21,338 nt of DNA, from the IMG/VR virus record IMGVR_UViG_3300036651_001424, positions 1-21,338 of that record; one strand, given 5' to 3'. This stretch comes from a virus. The number at the start of each line of letters is the position of its first letter. Position 1 is the stretch's first letter. A program made the translations under genes and the position numbers. Below, piece by piece: positions 2 through 11,314 of this stretch. Below the pieces are notes generated by a model. That model was given only the letters and a program-made list of their open reading frames with translations. It did not search any database and was not told the origin of the DNA.

Positions 2-67
2 GACAAGGCCAATGTTATTAAAGCCGCTAAACGTGCCGCTGGCCTAACGGATGAAACAAATGCCTAA
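2..67 (+). CDS. C-terminal end of an upstream gene (partial)
   Basis: An open frame enters from the left edge and stops at TAA 65-67. It encodes about 21 residues, beginning DKANVIKAAKRAAG, charged and likely helical. It overlaps the start of the next gene by 17 bases, in keeping with the tight overlaps downstream. The piece is too short to assign a function, and it could be chance read-through of a non-coding edge. Confidence 0.4.
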   Translation, partial: DKANVIKAAKRAAGLTDETNA

Positions 68-488
68 ACCTAAACTCACCGTAAAGCAAGCACGGTTCGT
101 TAAAGGTGTTGCTGAGGGTAAGCCGAAGTACAAAGCAGCCCAAGAAGCGTATGGGATTGTAAAACCGAACGTTGCTGGTGTAAAAGCTAGCCAGGAACTA
201 AGAAACGCTAACGTGCAAGAGGCGCTACAGGCAGAGTTAGCTCGACAAGGCATAACACTAGAGCAAATTATCGCCCCGGTAGCTAAGGCACTCAAGGCAA
301 AAGTACGCGTCAAAACAATAGATGAAGATGGGACGTATGAGATCGGTGAAGCTGATGATATAGAGATGCAGCTCAAAGGCCACGACCGTGCAGTGCGATT
401 AGTACTTCCCCGTCAGCAAGATGGTGGGACGACGAACTTTAACTTTATAAACGTCGCCGGCAAAGACAAGGATGAGTTTGGCATATGA
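51..488 (+). CDS. Terminase small subunit
   Basis: A 145-aa protein that probably recognises phage DNA and recruits the large terminase for packaging. Residues 8-35 carry the pattern LTVKQARFVKGVAEGKPKYKA, close to the LTxKQxxFVxxYxxGxxxxxAA motif that opens the helix-turn-helix region of Terminase_2-type small subunits. The middle (residues 45-95) is predicted helical, as expected for the oligomerisation region, and the C-terminus is acidic and loose. Position directly before the large-subunit ATPase supports the call. An alternative in-frame ATG at 60 is possible. The stop overlaps the next ATG as ATGA (485-488), suggesting translational coupling. Function is inferred from the motif and context. 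Confidence 0.82.
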   Translation: MKQMPKPKLTVKQARFVKGVAEGKPKYKAAQEAYGIVKPNVAGVKASQELRNANVQEALQAELARQGITLEQIIAPVAKALKAKVRVKTIDEDGTYEIGEADDIEMQLKGHDRAVRLVLPRQQDGGTTNFNFINVAGKDKDEFGI

Positions 489-610
489 CCAATTCTGCCC
501 TAGATCGTAACCCAGAGTACGAGTTATATATCAAGCGTGGTGTTAAGAGCCAGAGTTGGTATCAGAAAATACGAGCTGGCATTAGCAGAAGGCTGAAAAA
601 TATATCATGA
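485..610 (+). CDS. 41-aa protein between terminase subunits
   Basis: A short frame encodes MTNSALDRNPEYELYIKRG followed by a basic, helical C-terminus (net positive, many Arg/Lys, two Trp/Tyr positions). It starts with an ATGA overlap on the small-subunit stop and ends with an ATGA overlap on the large-subunit start (607-610), so it precisely bridges two genes that would otherwise be separated by 118 bases. That spacing logic is the main support for it being real. No family is recognised. It might act as a small packaging accessory, or simply keep ribosomes moving from the small to the large terminase subunit. Confidence 0.65.
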   Translation: MTNSALDRNPEYELYIKRGVKSQSWYQKIRAGISRRLKNIS

Positions 611-1410
611 GCCTTTACGATCCATACGCCAAGTTCATTGACGCCCGTCTAACCATCATAAACAAGGAAGGTCAAAATGTCCCGTTCGTACTTAACCCCA
701 TACAAAGAGCTTACGTCAGCAGATCAAGCAACCGAGATATTATCCTCAAAGCTCGGCAACAGGGATTTAGTTCTTTTATCCTTGCTGCTTTTACGGCAGA
801 TTTTCTACTCAAAGAAAACAGTAACTCTGTCGTGGTTGCCGATAAGTCGGACAATGCTATTGCACTTCTCGGACGGGTCAAGCACTACCTTAGAGCCTAC
901 GAAGAAAAAACCGGCTCGAAAATCCCGCTCAAGTACAACTCGAAGTACCAACTCGTAAACGGAGCCAACAATGCCACATATACAATCGGCACAGCACAAG
1001 AGCAAGACTTCGGCCGCTCGCGCACCATCACAAACCTTCATTTATCTGAGGCCGCCTTTTACCCGAACTTGCCTAATCTGCTCGCTGGTGCGGCACAGGC
1101 TGTCGTTCCAAACGGTAAACTCATCATCGAAACAACCGCTAATGGGTTTAATGCATTCAAATCACTTTGGGATGATTCGATGCTTGGCCAGACTGCCTAC
1201 CAGCCACTTTTCTTTAAGGCATCCGATTTCTATGACCCTGCTACGTTGGAGCAAAAGCACAGAGAACTTGGCAACCGCCTCTTCAACCAAGAATACCCAG
1301 AGACACCAGAAATAGCCTTTGTCACATCCGGTGCGCCGTACTTTGATGCCGATGCTATGAGCTACTATCTAGAATCAGTCAAGAATGTACGGGAGCTAGC
1401 TACCGTATGA
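607..1410 (+). CDS. Terminase large subunit, ATPase half (split gene)
   Basis: A 267-aa protein corresponding only to the N-terminal ATPase motor of a large terminase, which drives DNA into the prohead. Visible motifs in order: Q-motif LNPIQ (residues 29-33), a deviant Walker A KARQQGFSS (48-56) with Phe where the usual Lys sits, Walker B TNLHLSEAAFY (142-152) with catalytic Glu148, and the coupling motif ETTANGF (175-181). After FVTSGAPYFDADAM, the usual end of the motor domain, the frame stops at TGA 1408-1410. Whole large terminases usually run 400-600 aa, so the nuclease domain is missing here; it is encoded separately at 2036-2689. The stop overlaps the methyltransferase start as ATGA. 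The two halves must act as separate subunits if packaging uses them. The ATPase assignment is strong. Confidence 0.9.
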   Translation: MSLYDPYAKFIDARLTIINKEGQNVPFVLNPIQRAYVSRSSNRDIILKARQQGFSSFILAAFTADFLLKENSNSVVVADKSDNAIALLGRVKHYLRAYEEKTGSKIPLKYNSKYQLVNGANNATYTIGTAQEQDFGRSRTITNLHLSEAAFYPNLPNLLAGAAQAVVPNGKLIIETTANGFNAFKSLWDDSMLGQTAYQPLFFKASDFYDPATLEQKHRELGNRLFNQEYPETPEIAFVTSGAPYFDADAMSYYLESVKNVRELATV

Positions 1411-2036
1411 ATCCACTAGAACAATGGGCGAACCAGCATCAGGGCAACTTTATGTACAAGTGGAGCCACTACTTTGATATATATCACAAACACTTCAAAC
1501 GCTTCCGTGGCGAGCCGATCAAGCTATTGGAAATAGGAATCTACGGCGGCGGTAGCTTGCAGATGTGGAAATGGTACTTCGGCAAACGGGCAAATATCCT
1601 TGGTGTAGACATTGACCCATTTTGTATCAAGTACGCTGAGCCACACATCAAGGTAAAGATCGGCGACCAGGCCGATGCGAAGTTCCTAGAGTCTCTCGGC
1701 GAGTACGACATTATCATCGACGACGGCGGCCACTTCACCTCACAGCAAACAGCCTCGTTTATGAAGCTCTACGACAAAGTAAAGCCTAATGGTATCTACC
1801 TGATCGAAGACACGCATACCTCGTATATTCCCAAGTACATTGATACCTCGCTCACCTTCACCGACTACTGCAAGAAGCTCATTGACGTCATGCACACCCA
1901 TTACGCCGGACACCCGTTCAACGACTTCAGTGCGTCAACCAATTCGATTACCTTTTACGACTCAGTGATCGTGTTTGAAAAGCAACCGCGTACCGTCCCA
2001 GAGCAAACCTTTTATGCAGGAACGGAGCGCCGCTAA
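1407..2036 (+). CDS. SAM-dependent O-methyltransferase, sugar-type, inside terminase locus
   Basis: A 209-aa class I methyltransferase. Motif I is LLEIGIYGGGSL (residues 40-51), the acidic ribose-binding motif is GVDIDP (66-71), followed by GDQAD (86-90), DIIIDDGGH (101-109) and YLIEDTHTSY (131-140). The last two motifs resemble the metal-dependent sugar O-methyltransferases related to MycE/TylF/CmcI, where the acidic residues hold a divalent metal. The family match is from memory; the substrate is unknown, with a glycan as the best guess. The gene sits exactly between the ATPase and nuclease halves of the terminase, overlapping both (ATGA at 1407-1410, TAATG at 2034-2038), with no promoter of its own. 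It looks intact and is not a nuclease, intein or intron. A glycosyltransferase lies at 9618. Confidence 0.85.
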   Translation: MNPLEQWANQHQGNFMYKWSHYFDIYHKHFKRFRGEPIKLLEIGIYGGGSLQMWKWYFGKRANILGVDIDPFCIKYAEPHIKVKIGDQADAKFLESLGEYDIIIDDGGHFTSQQTASFMKLYDKVKPNGIYLIEDTHTSYIPKYIDTSLTFTDYCKKLIDVMHTHYAGHPFNDFSASTNSITFYDSVIVFEKQPRTVPEQTFYAGTERR

Positions 2037-2689
2037 TGTTTCGGAGATACCGCCAACCAGAGCTAGGCGAGTTCTTCTGCGTATTCGCCGATACGGCTGC
2101 CGGCGGCAATGACTACTGCGCGGTCCAGTTCCTAAGCAAGACCAAACTCGACGTCCCGCTTGTCTTTCATTCTAAGATTATCGCCAGTGAGATGACGCCG
2201 CAATTGCATCTCGAATTGGAGAAGTTATACGACCTAACCCATGTGCCACCAGTCGTGGCATACGAAAGGAACAACGGAGGAGTCTATGAGCTTGAACGCC
2301 TCGCCACCCTCAACCGCAATAACAGGTACACTATTTACCAAGAGAAGACCAACCTTGGCTCGACGGATACTACGCAGAATTCTCCGAAGCTTGGATGGAC
2401 AACCAGCACAGCCACCCGTCCGCCTATGCTCTCAATGCTCAAAGAGGCCATCGACCACCGCCTCATTAAACTGTATGACCGCGCTACGATTAATGAGCTA
2501 TTTGCCTTTGTCGTGGTACAAACATCGTCCAGTTGGAAAGCCCAAGCAGAATCCGGCGCACACGATGACCTCATTATGGCGTTGGCCGGTGCGTGGCAAC
2601 TCTACCAAACGGAAAACCCACCGATAACACAGAACCCTAGCTTATACATACGCGACCCTGATATGGAAAGGATATGGAACGAGATATGA
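2036..2689 (+). CDS. Terminase large subunit, nuclease half (split gene)
   Basis: A 217-aa protein corresponding to the C-terminal RNase H-like nuclease of a large terminase, which cuts concatemeric DNA. It begins at the inter-domain linker (FRRYRQPELGEF) and keeps the metal-binding acidic residues: Asp19 in VFADTAAGG, Glu77 in VVAYERNNGG, and Asp177/Asp178 in GAHDDLIMALAGAW. No essential piece seems lost between this start and the end of the ATPase gene. Its ATG overlaps the methyltransferase stop (TAATG), so translation is probably by reinitiation. The three genes 607, 1407 and 2036 lie in three different frames, which rules out an in-frame insertion or a single frameshift. Nuclease identity is firm; assembly with the ATPase half is inference. 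Confidence 0.88.
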   Translation: MFRRYRQPELGEFFCVFADTAAGGNDYCAVQFLSKTKLDVPLVFHSKIIASEMTPQLHLELEKLYDLTHVPPVVAYERNNGGVYELERLATLNRNNRYTIYQEKTNLGSTDTTQNSPKLGWTTSTATRPPMLSMLKEAIDHRLIKLYDRATINELFAFVVVQTSSSWKAQAESGAHDDLIMALAGAWQLYQTENPPITQNPSLYIRDPDMERIWNEI

Positions 2690-2982
2690 ACGACTCTGAA
2701 TTACTGCGCCTTATCGCCACGCAATTAGCTACCGTACCGGACTTCGGACAGGTACAGTTTCACATCAAGAAGCACATTGGATCATTCAGTAATACCGACG
2801 TCGTCAAGCTCACGAGCTACCGGTACACGAAAGACGAACCGAACGTCAGCGTCACAACTGATATGCTCCGGCTTGTCAAACAGATCACCGACGCCCAGCT
2901 AACCGGCTCGCTAGGTTTCAGCGTGCAGTTCAAACACGGTAAAGCTGAGCAAATGCAGGTGCAGGATTTTAAGAAATTATAA
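2674..2982 (+). CDS. Hypothetical protein after terminase
   Basis: A 102-aa protein without a recognised family. The N-terminal third is helical (SELLRLIATQLATV) and the rest alternates beta-like segments with charged turns, including QVQFHIKKHIG and LGFSVQFKHGK. It overlaps the terminase nuclease gene by 16 bases. An in-frame ATG at 2686 would give an ATGA overlap (2686-2689) like the other junctions of this operon and may be the true start. Its place between terminase and portal suggests a small head or packaging accessory. Confidence 0.7.
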   Translation: MERDMNDSELLRLIATQLATVPDFGQVQFHIKKHIGSFSNTDVVKLTSYRYTKDEPNVSVTTDMLRLVKQITDAQLTGSLGFSVQFKHGKAEQMQVQDFKKL

Positions 2983-3309: not shown

Positions 3310-5292
3310 TTGGCTCGCAAATCTCCTTCCACCACCACAGCAGTAAAAGACGACCAGCCAACGAGTGCTGCTATTGATGAGTTATTGACGCAGAAGCAAG
3401 CCTCGTGGGATGCCCTGCGCCCGATTCAAGCAACGTGGAGCGACCGTGAACGCCTACTGATTAACCGCCCCGCCGATTCATACACCCAGAAGACTACTAA
3501 ATCCCATGTTACTGACGCCCACATCTCTACCCTTGCCTTTGAACGCCAAGCCCGTGTTGCCGCCCAGTTGCCGACAGGTATTATTTATTCCCTGACCAGT
3601 AAAGATGAGCAACCAGCGTTCTTAATGAACCTGATACTCAACAAGTACATCCTGCCGAGCGCCAACTCGCAGATGGATGCCCTGAGCAAACTGCGCATGT
3701 CCGGTGTCTACGCCAGCGTGTATGGTGCCTGCCCGATGATGTACGACTACCGCGTAGACGATGAATACATTGGTCCCGACTTCTGGATTATCCAGCCGCG
3801 CAACTTCTTCCCACAGCCAGGTAAAAACTCTATCCGCGACTGTGATTGGGTGATGATCTCCGAAATCCGCTCGATCTCTTTCTTCGACGCGATCCTGAAG
3901 CGTGAGAAAACCAGCTGGAACAAGAAGGCTATCAACAAGCTGAAAGAACTGACCAAAGACGGGGCGACACCAGCCCGCGACATCGATTCTTCCAAAAAGT
4001 CCGCTATTGAAAACGTGCGTACTGCCGGACGGCCGTATGCCGACAAAGGCTCCGCTGCCCGTGTCGAACTGGTTACGAAGTACGAGAAAGGTACGACTGG
4101 GCACTGGATTACCTTTGCACCTGATTACAAAGAAGCCGGTGTCTTGCGCGACATCCCTAACCCTCACGCGAATGGCCGCATCCCAATCGTCATGCGCCAG
4201 TGCTTCCCACTCGTTGAATCGATCTGGGGACTTGGTGACTTTGAGCGCGGCATTACCCTGCAGAAAGCTAAGGACAGTTTAATCAACCTCTACCTCGACG
4301 GGGTTAAGCTAGCCATCTTTAAGCCGCTCAAGATCGACGTCGCCAACGTTACGATGAGCTCAATCAAGATGGAAGCCGGTGCGCGTTGGCTCATGAAAGA
4401 TCCAAACGCCGTTGCACCCTATGATTCCGGCGGCGCTGAAGCCCTGCAGAACTTCCAAGGGACGTATGAGTTCTTGACTTCTGCTCTGCTCAACCAGTTC
4501 GGGTCAAACCAACAGCAAGTCAGCAAGAACGATTCCGGCAACCCGGCGCTCGGCCGAACTCCACAGGCAATCGAAGCCCAGAACCAGCGTGAAGACGCCC
4601 GCGACAACTGGGATCGCTTCCAGCTCGAAAAGTGCCTCGAAGACTTACTCGAAGGCATGATCAACCTGCTTGCGGAAAAGCAGGAAAAGCCAATCAACTT
4701 CCACATCTTTGACGCTGACGTCGAACAGGTCATGCAGCGCTTCGGTACGACAAGCGCTAGCGGTGAGGTAATTAAGGCCCCAGACTTCATGTCGCCAATG
4801 GGGCGCAGTGCCAAATTGACGGTGGCCAAGAGCCTGATCAAAGGAGCCTACCGCTACATTGTTGACGCGTCCAGCACGATGCGTGAGCAAGAGGAAGCCC
4901 AGAACGAATCACTAGTGCAGATCATGAACCTCTACATCGCCAATCCCCAAGTCTACGACCAGTTATTACAGCGAGAGGGCTACCAGTTCAAGTTCGGCAG
5001 TGCCCTCAAGACATTTATCTACAACTCCGGTATTAATGATCCCGATTCAATTATCACCAAGATCAACCAGCAGCCCGGCCAGCAAGGCCAGCCAGGCCAG
5101 CCGGTGCAGATGCAGCCAGCGCAGATCAACCCCGCCCATCTGCAGTCGATCCAAGACCCGCAAATCCGCCAAGTTGCCCAACAGCTCTTCGGCCAAGGAG
5201 GTCAGCCACAGCAACCCCAACAACCGCAGCAGCCACCGATGACGCAGCAACCAATGCCTCAGATGCAAGGAGCAATGCCAAATGGACAATAA
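3310..5292 (+). CDS. Portal protein (podovirus-type head-tail connector)
   Basis: A 660-aa protein expected to form the dodecameric ring at the capsid vertex through which DNA passes. Features seen: an N-terminal helical region with ATWSDRERLLINR, a long alpha/beta core including GVYASVYGACPMMYDYRVDD and PDFWIIQPRNFFPQPG, a helical stem-like region near residues 310-480 (DSLINLYLDGVKLAIFKP), and a C-terminal Pro/Gln-rich tail from about residue 590 with QPGQ-type repeats. Length and layout match the large portals of T7-like and N4-like phages. The start is TTG at 3310, supported by TTGAGG 7 bases upstream; no nearby ATG is in frame. Position after terminase and before scaffold and capsid agrees. 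The low-complexity tail is unusual. Confidence 0.85.
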   Translation: MARKSPSTTTAVKDDQPTSAAIDELLTQKQASWDALRPIQATWSDRERLLINRPADSYTQKTTKSHVTDAHISTLAFERQARVAAQLPTGIIYSLTSKDEQPAFLMNLILNKYILPSANSQMDALSKLRMSGVYASVYGACPMMYDYRVDDEYIGPDFWIIQPRNFFPQPGKNSIRDCDWVMISEIRSISFFDAILKREKTSWNKKAINKLKELTKDGATPARDIDSSKKSAIENVRTAGRPYADKGSAARVELVTKYEKGTTGHWITFAPDYKEAGVLRDIPNPHANGRIPIVMRQCFPLVESIWGLGDFERGITLQKAKDSLINLYLDGVKLAIFKPLKIDVANVTMSSIKMEAGARWLMKDPNAVAPYDSGGAEALQNFQGTYEFLTSALLNQFGSNQQQVSKNDSGNPALGRTPQAIEAQNQREDARDNWDRFQLEKCLEDLLEGMINLLAEKQEKPINFHIFDADVEQVMQRFGTTSASGEVIKAPDFMSPMGRSAKLTVAKSLIKGAYRYIVDASSTMREQEEAQNESLVQIMNLYIANPQVYDQLLQREGYQFKFGSALKTFIYNSGINDPDSIITKINQQPGQQGQPGQPVQMQPAQINPAHLQSIQDPQIRQVAQQLFGQGGQPQQPQQPQQPPMTQQPMPQMQGAMPNGQ

Positions 5293-7764: not shown

Positions 7765-8283
7765 ATGATTATGGCATATAACAAACAAGAATCAAGCGCA
7801 TACGCGGCCGCCCATATGTGGGTTAGATACCATTATGGACGGCCACAGCGCTGCGATAATTGTCACACGACAGAGCCACGTATGTACCACTGGGCTAATA
7901 TCAGTCGTACATACAAAAGAGAGCGTTCGGACTGGTTACGCCTATGTGTACCATGTCATAAACGCCACGACGTTACCGCACTTGGGGGCAAGATAAGAAG
8001 CAGACCCCAAAAGGTACAGCCGAGTAAAATCTGCCCCCAGTGCCGCGTCGAATTCTTTAAGAACCCGAAGCTTAGCATGCCTCAATGGCAAGCTACCTAC
8101 CTTTGCAGCAAAGCTTGTTCCGCAAGGTTAACAGGCAAGAAGCTGAAAGGGAGCAGCCAGTCCGAAGCGACGAAAGCCCTCAAGACGGAAAAATTGAAGC
8201 AACGCTGGGCGACTAATAAAGAATGGCGTGAACACATTTCACAAACCATGCGCGGCAACCAGAACGCTCGCAAAGCTATTTAA
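7765..8283 (+). CDS. HNH endonuclease-like protein with two zinc sites
   Basis: A 172-aa protein. The HNH-like core has a zinc tetrad Cys30/Cys33 (RCDNC) and Cys61/Cys64 (LCVPC), with His42-Trp-Ala-Asn45 between them and His65/His68 after the second pair. A second possible zinc site uses Cys90, Cys93, Cys114 and Cys118. The C-terminus (SQSEATKALKTEKLKQRW, then TMRGNQNARKA) resembles NUMOD3 DNA-binding repeats seen in homing endonucleases. It interrupts the head operon right after the capsid gene and has its own promoter, so it is probably a free-standing selfish gene. A second start at 7771 (MAYNKQ) is possible. DNA cleavage is inferred from motifs, not proven. Confidence 0.78.
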   Translation: MIMAYNKQESSAYAAAHMWVRYHYGRPQRCDNCHTTEPRMYHWANISRTYKRERSDWLRLCVPCHKRHDVTALGGKIRSRPQKVQPSKICPQCRVEFFKNPKLSMPQWQATYLCSKACSARLTGKKLKGSSQSEATKALKTEKLKQRWATNKEWREHISQTMRGNQNARKAI

Positions 8284-9336: not shown

Positions 9337-9618
9337 ATGGCAAAAAGTGATGTCTTTACTGCTAGCGGCGTATGCCAGGCAGCATCAGGCGGCCTATGGG
9401 CGGTCAACGTTACGAAAGTAGCGACTGGCGCGGGCGTTGTCCGCGTGTGGGACAACCCTACAACTAACTCAGGTAAGAAACTATTTGAGGGCGACGGTTT
9501 GGTACAGGGCAGCTTCTGCATGACAGACGGCAATGGTGGCCCGACGACGGCAACGCAGGGCCTGTATGTTGAACTCGGCGGCACGACCAACGCAACTGTA
9601 GTGATAGTACACGACTAA
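9337..9618 (+). CDS. Small beta-rich virion protein, possible head decoration
   Basis: A 93-aa Gly/Thr/Asn-rich protein with repeated beta-type strands (KVATGAGVVRVWDNPTTNSG and GLYVELGGTTNATVVIV). This layout resembles small beta-sandwich phage proteins found near capsid genes, sometimes annotated as head or tail decoration; the match is from memory. Its stop overlaps the glycosyltransferase start (TAATG, 9616-9620), which ties their translation together and makes it a candidate substrate. Confidence 0.62.
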   Translation: MAKSDVFTASGVCQAASGGLWAVNVTKVATGAGVVRVWDNPTTNSGKKLFEGDGLVQGSFCMTDGNGGPTTATQGLYVELGGTTNATVVIVHD

Positions 9619-10694
9619 TGAAGATTCTTCTGGCGCACAGCGACCCGAAATTACCGGCCCGTGAGTCAATCGACTTGTGGCGAATTATCCGTCCATTTGC
9701 TGAACTAGAGAAGCATGTTGACTGGCAGATTGACCATGTGCCATACCTTGTGCCAGAAGAACTGTTTGACGATCAATCAAGAGTAAAGATCGACGACCTG
9801 CTAACGCACCTCGAAACTATAGCCGACTACGACGTTATATGGACGTCGTACTTCCCTGACGCTATGCTATTTGACGCATTGCAGTTCATGTGCGAACGAA
9901 GCGGTACGAAGTTTGTTCTAGACTGCGACGACGATATGTACCATATCCCCGCCCACAACGGTATCTGGAAATCAGCCGGGGCAACCGGCGTCCAAAGTTT
10001 ACAGTGGATGGTACAGAACGCCCCGAATCTTGTTACCTCCTGCCCGAATCTCAAGGCGGAGTTTGAGAAACATCGGAAAGCCCCTACTTATATTCTTCCA
10101 AACTATATAGGTGCGGACTATAAACATAAACCGTTCAACAATGGCGACAAGGTGGTTATCGGCTTTTTTGGCTCAGTCACTCACAAACACGACTTGTTCA
10201 ACACCGGCTTTATAGAAGCGCTGCAACAGTTGATGAACAAGTACGTGCACGTCCATGTCGGCACGGTCGGCCTGGCAATTGACGCCTACTTACCAAAAGG
10301 CCGTTATACACACTATCCCGGTAAGCCTGGCCGCGCCTGGCTCACCGAAGTCTGGCCGAACATTAACGTAGATATTGCCGTCGCCCCGTTGGAAGATACC
10401 CCGTTTAACCGGGCAAAGACGAATATCAAGTGGTTAGAGACGGCCATGATTCCCGCCGCTTTCGTTGGCTCTAATATCCCGCCATACCAAGGCACTGTTG
10501 AACATGATAAGACGGGGCTGCTTACCGACAATAGTTCTGAGGGCTGGTACGAAGCGCTGGAATCCTTGGTCATCAACCCAGAGAGACGTATCAAGCTGGC
10601 TGCCAATGCCCGTAAAGAGGTACTAGCTAAGTGGAACATTGCTACCGGATGGGAAACGCTGAAGACGGTGGTGGAACAGATAAACGGCGCTTGA
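9618..10694 (+). CDS. GT-B fold glycosyltransferase (GT4-like)
   Basis: A 358-aa protein that should move a sugar from an activated donor to an unknown acceptor. The N-terminal domain starts MKILLAHSD and includes KFVLDCDDDMYHIP. The C-terminal Rossmann-like domain begins near KVVIGFFGSVTHKHDL and carries the donor-site region DIAVAPLEDTPFNRAKTNIK, KWLETAMIPAAFVGS and HDKTGLLTDNSSEGWYEAL, typical of GT4 enzymes. No signal peptide is seen, so it acts in the cytoplasm. It is embedded in virion genes, translationally coupled to the gene at 9337, and no promoter separates them. Likely role: glycosylation of a virion protein or alteration of host surface sugar; the acceptor is inference. Confidence 0.85.
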   Translation: MKILLAHSDPKLPARESIDLWRIIRPFAELEKHVDWQIDHVPYLVPEELFDDQSRVKIDDLLTHLETIADYDVIWTSYFPDAMLFDALQFMCERSGTKFVLDCDDDMYHIPAHNGIWKSAGATGVQSLQWMVQNAPNLVTSCPNLKAEFEKHRKAPTYILPNYIGADYKHKPFNNGDKVVIGFFGSVTHKHDLFNTGFIEALQQLMNKYVHVHVGTVGLAIDAYLPKGRYTHYPGKPGRAWLTEVWPNINVDIAVAPLEDTPFNRAKTNIKWLETAMIPAAFVGSNIPPYQGTVEHDKTGLLTDNSSEGWYEALESLVINPERRIKLAANARKEVLAKWNIATGWETLKTVVEQINGA

Positions 10695-10729: not shown

Positions 10730-11314
10730 ATGAGTATTGTAAGGACTATCAAGAAAGCCGCCGTAGGAGCCATTCTGACGCTAGGCGTATTGGTTGCCAT
10801 CTTCACTGTGCTTGTCTTAGGTACTATCGCCAATACACTCGGTGCGAGGTCAGCAGTTCCCGCAAAGGCTACCCCAGCCATAACTGCTTATACTAAGTAT
10901 GATGACCCAGGAGCATTCACGGTCGCGAACCTCATTGAAGCCATCAACGCGGCGAGAGCCGCAAAGGGCGTACAGCCCGTAACCGAAAGCAAAATACTTG
11001 ACGCAACCGCCCAAGCACATGCCGTTGACATGCAACAGCGTGGTTATTATGCACACGTCAGCCCAGATGGTAAGACGCCGCAAGATCGCATTGCATTGGC
11101 TCTCGGCAGAGACGTTTACTCCGGCGAGAACGAAGACAACATATGCCCTGGTGTCACAGTAAGCGGTGAGATGAAGCGTATCGCGGCAAGCGCCGAACAT
11201 TACGCCAATCAAGAAGACCCGCAGATTAACTACTTGGGTGTTGGGTTTGTAATATCCAGCACCAACACATCTACCTGTAATGGCTATTTAGTTTTCGATT
11301 ACGCGCAACTCTGA
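10730..11314 (+). CDS. CAP-domain (SCP/PR-1-like) secreted or membrane-anchored protein
   Basis: A 194-aa protein. Residues 9-35 form a hydrophobic segment after a basic start (RTIKKAAVGAILTLGVLVA), acting as signal anchor or signal peptide; the region to about 60 is a linker. The CAP domain follows: NLIEAINAARAAKGV, AQAHAVDMQQRGYYAHVSP, SGENE and EHYANQEDPQINYLGVGF, with His97, His109, Glu133/Glu135 and His157 as the usual cavity residues. Cys139 and Cys183 could form a disulfide outside the cell. Bacterial CAP proteins are often extracytoplasmic and their activity is poorly defined. With its own promoter between structural operons it looks like a cargo (moron) gene expressed for the host or for infection. 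Confidence 0.82.
   Translation: MSIVRTIKKAAVGAILTLGVLVAIFTVLVLGTIANTLGARSAVPAKATPAITAYTKYDDPGAFTVANLIEAINAARAAKGVQPVTESKILDATAQAHAVDMQQRGYYAHVSPDGKTPQDRIALALGRDVYSGENEDNICPGVTVSGEMKRIAASAEHYANQEDPQINYLGVGFVISSTNTSTCNGYLVFDYAQL

Follow-up and report, generated by a model that had tools for sequence, protein, structure and literature searches.

The large terminase subunit, TerL, is encoded by a hallmark gene of tailed phages. Outside the phi29-type motors it has, to our knowledge, been treated as an obligate fusion of an ATPase with a nuclease, with the linkage coupling DNA translocation to cutting. The viral DNA considered here, a stretch of 21,338 nucleotides termed the window, carries the two activities in separate genes with an intact methyltransferase gene between them. 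This raises the question of whether the methyltransferase broke up a terminase in this one phage, or whether the split is older and the motor is made of two polypeptides. Relatives were collected by scanning IMG/VR with each half and, for the nuclease, by a profile scan of GTDB genomes; the data are uncultured contigs, mostly fragments.

The genes of the terminase block, the portal gene and the glycosyltransferase gene of the window are all on the plus strand. The small terminase subunit, TerS (51..488; phrog_51, E 2e-10; Pfam Terminase_2, E 2e-4), is followed by a 41-amino acid open reading frame, read from the sequence (485..610), which has an ATGA overlap at each end. Next are TerL-A, a stand-alone large-terminase ATPase domain of 267 amino acids (607..1410), the resident methyltransferase of 209 amino acids (1407..2036) and TerL-N, a stand-alone RNase H-like nuclease domain of 217 amino acids (2036..2689). 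The gene after TerL-N (2686..2982), also read from the sequence, begins at an ATGA that it shares with the end of the nuclease gene; it has no assigned function and no PHROG match. Neighbours overlap throughout, and form a tight operon from TerS to the gene at 2686. The preliminary description of this layout is confirmed in full: TerL-A, methyltransferase and TerL-N each occupy a different reading frame (start mod 3 = 1, 0 and 2), and are joined by ATGA at 1407 and by TAATG at 2034–2038. All three genes are under strong purifying selection (pN 0.15–0.22 versus pS 0.80–0.98).

Further downstream, a putative SU10-like portal protein (3310..5292) is assigned from its position and a weak match to PF23899 (E 0.001, under the curated cut-off). 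A glycosyltransferase is encoded at 9618..10694 (phrog_7162, E 9e-26). The structural gene region encodes a CAP-domain (SCP-like) protein whose N-terminus bears a hydrophobic segment (10730–11314; PF00188, E 1e-11). Inserted after the major head gene is a gene for an HNH-like or zinc-finger protein (7765–8283; CDNCHTTEPR...LCVPCHKRHD), for which a family search gave no significant match above the cut-off.

Each half closely resembles one domain of the T4 terminase, gp17. AlphaFold (AF2) models built from clade alignments have pLDDT values of 91 for TerL-A and 86 for TerL-N. The ATPase half aligns with the ATPase domain of T4 gp17 by Foldseek (E 6e-13) and by sequence profile (E 1e-9 to 3e-10), and the nuclease half matches the gp17 nuclease of T4/RB49 by Foldseek (E 9e-10) and by profile (E 4e-10). 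Among PHROGs, the TerL family phrog_2 (E 9e-12) takes in the ATPase half, and phrog_24361, annotated ‘terminase’ (E 2e-10), the nuclease half; Pfam alone recognizes neither half.

The catalytic residues can be followed from T4 in profile alignments. Walker A of gp17 (SRQLGKTT, 161–168) corresponds to KARQQGFSS in the window, catalytic E256 to E148, and the coupling motif (TTT285) to ETTANG; across 35 sequences of the clade-wide alignment these three vary little or not at all. Gp17 residues D401, E458 and D542 correspond to D19, E77 and D178 of TerL-N, and the acidic positions D19, E77 and D177/D178 are invariant in 36 sequences. In the Walker-B pair (T4 D255 E256) the Glu is kept, but Ser or Thr takes the place of the Asp clade-wide, and L033 and L034, which are fused relatives, have Ser there. 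Thus the earlier view that nothing catalytic is missing holds on alignment for every residue except the Walker-B Asp, and the proposal that ATPase and nuclease are each a complete half-enzyme in its own gene is borne out by the matching T4 folds and residues. The break falls in the gp17 hinge, between residues equivalent to about 367 and 384. Additional domains were sought at the ends of the TerL-A and TerL-N proteins, and none were found.

The source is metagenomic, and a methyltransferase block could in principle have been wrongly joined to terminase fragments. An assembly error is ruled out by two independent contigs. L002, a separate contig, runs collinear with the window for 6,987 nt and differs from it at 11 positions, and L083, from another metagenome, has a methyltransferase at the same place with 72% amino acid identity to that of the window. 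With the same gene order in both, and with operon-like ATGA junctions on both sides of the block, a chimera has virtually no probability. A second complete terminase, which the preliminary description regarded as fatal to a split, was found neither in the window nor in the relatives tested. The copy number search covered nine viral records of up to 44 kb, of uncertified completeness, and used the profiles A1/A2 together with Pfam; phrog_2 is too insensitive for this purpose and misses the window itself. Eight of these records have the split system, with TerL-A and TerL-N present exactly once in each, and a search of the rest of the eight for Terminase_6C and Terminase_3C gave no match. The remaining record, that of the L184 phage, lacks the split system and encodes an unrelated fused Terminase_3/3C protein.

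The split is widespread. ATPase and nuclease are separate open reading frames, and not one polypeptide, in 43 distinct loci. No insert lies between the halves in 29 of the 43; the genes overlap by 1–26 nt in 25 and are separated by gaps of 8–45 nt in four. This insert-free arrangement persists in relatives whose identity is as low as 29% in the ATPase and 43% in the nuclease. An ancestral fused TerL was sought among close relatives and none was found. More distant relatives have fused TerL proteins of about 490–670 amino acids, both on other viral contigs and in bacterial prophages, those of Firmicutes among them, and two members, L027 and L029, are re-fused. The unsplit counterpart that had been proposed as a reference for the joint exists at a distance or as a re-fusion, but close relatives are split.

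On the ATPase tree, the split/fused character requires two changes, one split at the clade base and one re-fusion. Support for the split is 91 with L069 and L073 included and 97 without them, and for the nested re-fusion 95. This position makes the split an old one, earlier than the methyltransferase. The implication of the preliminary description, that the methyltransferase split the terminase, is therefore not sustained: 29 of 43 loci are split with no insert. The window gene does sit exactly between the ATPase and nuclease domains, as would be expected had it invaded an intact terL in this phage, but the insert-free split relatives, the depth of the split and the unrelated genes at the same joint elsewhere make such an invasion very unlikely, and as the cause of the split the methyltransferase is refuted. 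From the sequences compared, terL is shown to have split once, in an ancestor and at the ATPase–nuclease hinge, with the halves kept since then in single copy and under purifying selection. A prophage in a Bacilli MAG (L168:6704–8354) has its TerL in overlapping open reading frames of 356 and 199 amino acids, which may be an independent split or a frameshift.

The joint between the halves accepts cargo genes. At least 60 nt separate the halves in 14 of the 43 loci, and 12 of these 14 have an insert bearing open reading frames; the inserts are mutually unrelated across loci. The MycE/TylE-type methyltransferase is present in the window and in L083, where a 73-amino acid open reading frame is added in front. 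L003 has a DNA N4/N6 methylase, L007 and L008 have sugar nucleotidyltransferases, L084/L085 a HAD-like protein with two small open reading frames, and L092 a NinG-like endonuclease. Two open reading frames are found in each of L013 and L103, and one small open reading frame in each of L087, L089 and L095. Thus a methyltransferase as resident gene, thought unusual at the outset, is indeed present but is merely one among many different inserts. The nuclease–portal junction next door likewise varies, from 243 to 1,774 nt, and the joint is therefore regarded as an ordinary intergenic junction and not a special target.

That a complete SAM methyltransferase lies between the halves was correctly recognized from the start; its type can now be added. 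The protein, METHYLTRANSFERASE (1407..2036), matches the macrolide sugar O-methyltransferases MycE (3ssm, E 6e-22) and TylE (8ia9, E 2e-16), as well as phrog_21658 (E 2e-25), and the IDDGxH and IED motifs of the SAM/metal site are present. Given this match, it most likely does not belong with the methylases of DNA or protein. The sequence similarity to MycE and TylE includes both motifs, but the window gene differs in being phage-borne, of a single domain, and mobile between a glycosyltransferase gene and the terminase joint. The glycosyltransferase location is in L184, where a methyltransferase 66% identical to that of the window overlaps the end of a gene homologous to the window glycosyltransferase (9618..10694). 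The L184 phage and the window have similar capsid, glycosyltransferase and CAP proteins, but their TerL proteins are unrelated and that of L184 is fused.

The methyltransferase is probably mobile glycan-decoration cargo that lies in the terminase joint by chance here. Together with the glycosyltransferase it would probably methylate a glycan of the virion or of the host surface, with no role in packaging. The nucleotidyltransferase inserts of L007 and L008 likewise point to sugar chemistry. A search of the literature on these glycans found nothing specific. Other features of the L184 record, which is about 20 kb, are a CAP-like protein that by appearance is similar to that at window 10730–11314, and a GroEL/Cpn60 chaperonin gene (L184:4633–6162; PF00118, E 4e-52) directly after the glycosyltransferase–methyltransferase pair.

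The question arises of whether the two genes nevertheless give one protein, by programmed frameshifting, stop codon read-through, mRNA splicing or a split intein. In most members the two genes lie side by side with an overlap, and in L100 an in-frame TAG TAG separates the halves. However, the overlaps span 1 to 26 nt and are found in both frame classes. Sorted by length mod 3, the overlaps number 18, 9 and 2, and their spread over two frame classes speaks against a fixed programmed frameshift joining the halves. In addition, many members have inserts of 200–1,300 nt with their own open reading frames, and nuclease genes often have a Shine-Dalgarno-like motif of their own, present at 23 of 39 nuclease starts versus a 17% background. 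An Rfam search of the window gave no intron family match, and the joint has no extra protein sequence; an intron or intein at the window joint is rejected on both grounds. The insert at the split site in the window is a methyltransferase and not a homing endonuclease, and most members have no insert. This upholds the initial reading of the window joint as free of intein, frameshift and homing endonuclease. Joining of the halves into one chain is quite unlikely.

Two separate chains remain the preferred product, and the overlaps and Shine-Dalgarno-like motifs would fit either re-initiation or independent initiation of TerL-N. It is plausible that translational coupling holds the ATPase to nuclease ratio. 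In L100 (4017–4045) the halves are in the same frame, the TAG TAG and a few bases apart, and read-through or TAG recoding is possible there. Intein-like sequences are found in or next to one of the halves in two other loci. L092 (4912–6555) has an intein-like insertion of about 330 amino acids in the nuclease half, after the catalytic HDD (SGAHDD^CFIAGS...VHN^CIMSLAG). L090 (75–596) has an intein-like sequence in frame before the ATPase half (...YEIEVDHPSHAYLTVCGVISN^SEAAFY), on a contig cut at its 5′ end, which suggests an intein near the Walker-B region.

As what is now an ordinary junction between genes, the joint tolerates cargo and also acts as a recombination boundary, and ATPases and nucleases of different lineages have consequently been re-paired and, once, re-fused. 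Between the window and L084, identity is 43% for the ATPase and 79% for the nuclease; with L004/L005 the values are 76–78% and 69%. L083 combines a type-2-like ATPase with a nuclease 82% identical to that of the window and the related methyltransferase described above. The type-2 ATPases (L084, L087, L089, L091 and L102) form one clade on the ATPase tree, with support of 100/99. On the nuclease tree the same members lie in five scattered places, that is, five changes for five rows, a count of re-pairing events that depends on trees of 36–39 sequences. The nuclease data reject a type-2 clade at a moderate level (AU p=0.010), for a grouping that was defined once the ATPase tree was known. Conversely, the nuclease grouping of the window with L007 and L084 is rejected by the ATPase data (AU p=2e-7).

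The re-fusion is seen in L027 (4081–5490) and L029 (793–2223). These encode chimeric TerL proteins in which an ATPase of the split clade is fused in frame, at the joint, to a Terminase_3C nuclease. Homology to the ATPase profile ends at 243–246 of 265, after which Terminase_3C begins (E 9e-10), and the nuclease part gave no match to the nuclease profile of the split clade. As the sequence comparisons have it, the halves recombine independently, with ATPases and nucleases of different lineages re-paired. Repeated re-pairing suggests either a tolerant interface between the halves or their recruitment by a shared partner, which may be DNA, TerS or the portal.

The packaging motor is very probably built from a two-polypeptide TerL, with a joint open to cargo, re-pairing and one re-fusion. 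In a proposed mechanism, one late mRNA would yield both TerL-A and TerL-N, by ribosomes that terminate and re-initiate or by a separate Shine-Dalgarno start. TerL-A would form the ATPase ring on the portal. TerL-N would dock non-covalently, or be recruited by DNA or TerS, and would make the initiation and termination (headful) cuts. We infer that TerL-A assembles physically with TerL-N.

Motors of the phi29 type have a packaging ATPase without an active nuclease, and this precedent, with the nuclease here being a separate gene, leads to a different possibility: packaging might need the ATPase alone, with the nuclease freed for another job, for example degradation of host DNA. TerL-A and the phi29-type ATPases (gp16/gp11) are alike in being ATPase chains without a linked active nuclease, and 7jq6 is a weak structural match. 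However, here a T4-like ATPase has an intact, conserved terminase nuclease encoded next door. The nuclease always adjoins the ATPase in the terS-terL-portal block, its D, E, D residues are invariant in the 36 sequences, it is of the T4/RB49 headful type, and the re-fused L027 and L029 again carry a terminase nuclease. A freed nuclease is thus quite unlikely. Probably the two-chain motor has its nuclease as an exchangeable subunit of its own. The covalent link, elsewhere characteristic of terminases, would have been lost once without being needed since, and regained once through a foreign nuclease, and the joint would have taken cargo.

Comparison with other systems reveals partial resemblances. 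T4 gp17 shares folds and catalytic residues with both halves and has the hinge at which they part, but it is one chain; the clade has two genes throughout, exchangeable halves and Ser or Thr in place of the Walker-B Asp. Apart from the single chain and that Asp, it agrees with a T4-type large terminase in all respects tested. In herpesvirus pUL15 the ATPase and nuclease exons lie apart with genes between them, which is similar to the window, but the exons are spliced into one protein and here there is no splicing. An intron or intein interrupts terL in other cases, for example in Jug phages (PMC12363816) and in the N4-like phages of Vibrio (PMC3670811), and there the pieces are rejoined through splicing of the group I intron or excision of the intein. 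The reading of terL is likewise interrupted here, but the domains are intact with their own starts and stops and overlaps of a few bases, and the window has no intron signature. The open-access literature searched yielded no earlier account of a two-gene TerL spanning a clade, only intron, intein and herpesvirus cases.

Among cultured phages, no split TerL was found in INPHARED within the reach of the search. The nearest INPHARED ATPases are 27–30% identical, and each has the annotation of a single terminase large subunit; CRP-7, inspected as an example, is a single open reading frame. The nearest phages by capsid are Pagevirus-like podophages, in which TerL is also a single open reading frame. 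One member of the split clade, L103, is located at 114168–130728 of a 151-kb contig that also has an ATP-synthase operon. The genome is about 1.1 Mb, lacks ribosomal protein L30 and has 13 T4SS_pilin (PF18895) matches; we take the L30 absence and T4SS_pilin to be markers of Patescibacteria. L103 is thus a probable prophage of a Patescibacteria-like host, and the phages of such hosts are poorly known.

That a two-chain TerL has lasted through large sequence divergence, its halves re-pairing between lineages, suggests that ATPase and nuclease can dispense with a covalent link. Since the halves have different histories, phylogenies and annotation based on TerL may miss or misplace such phages. 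The clade also provides a natural system for the coupling of translocation to cutting, in which each half can be titrated, exchanged or mutated independently of the other.
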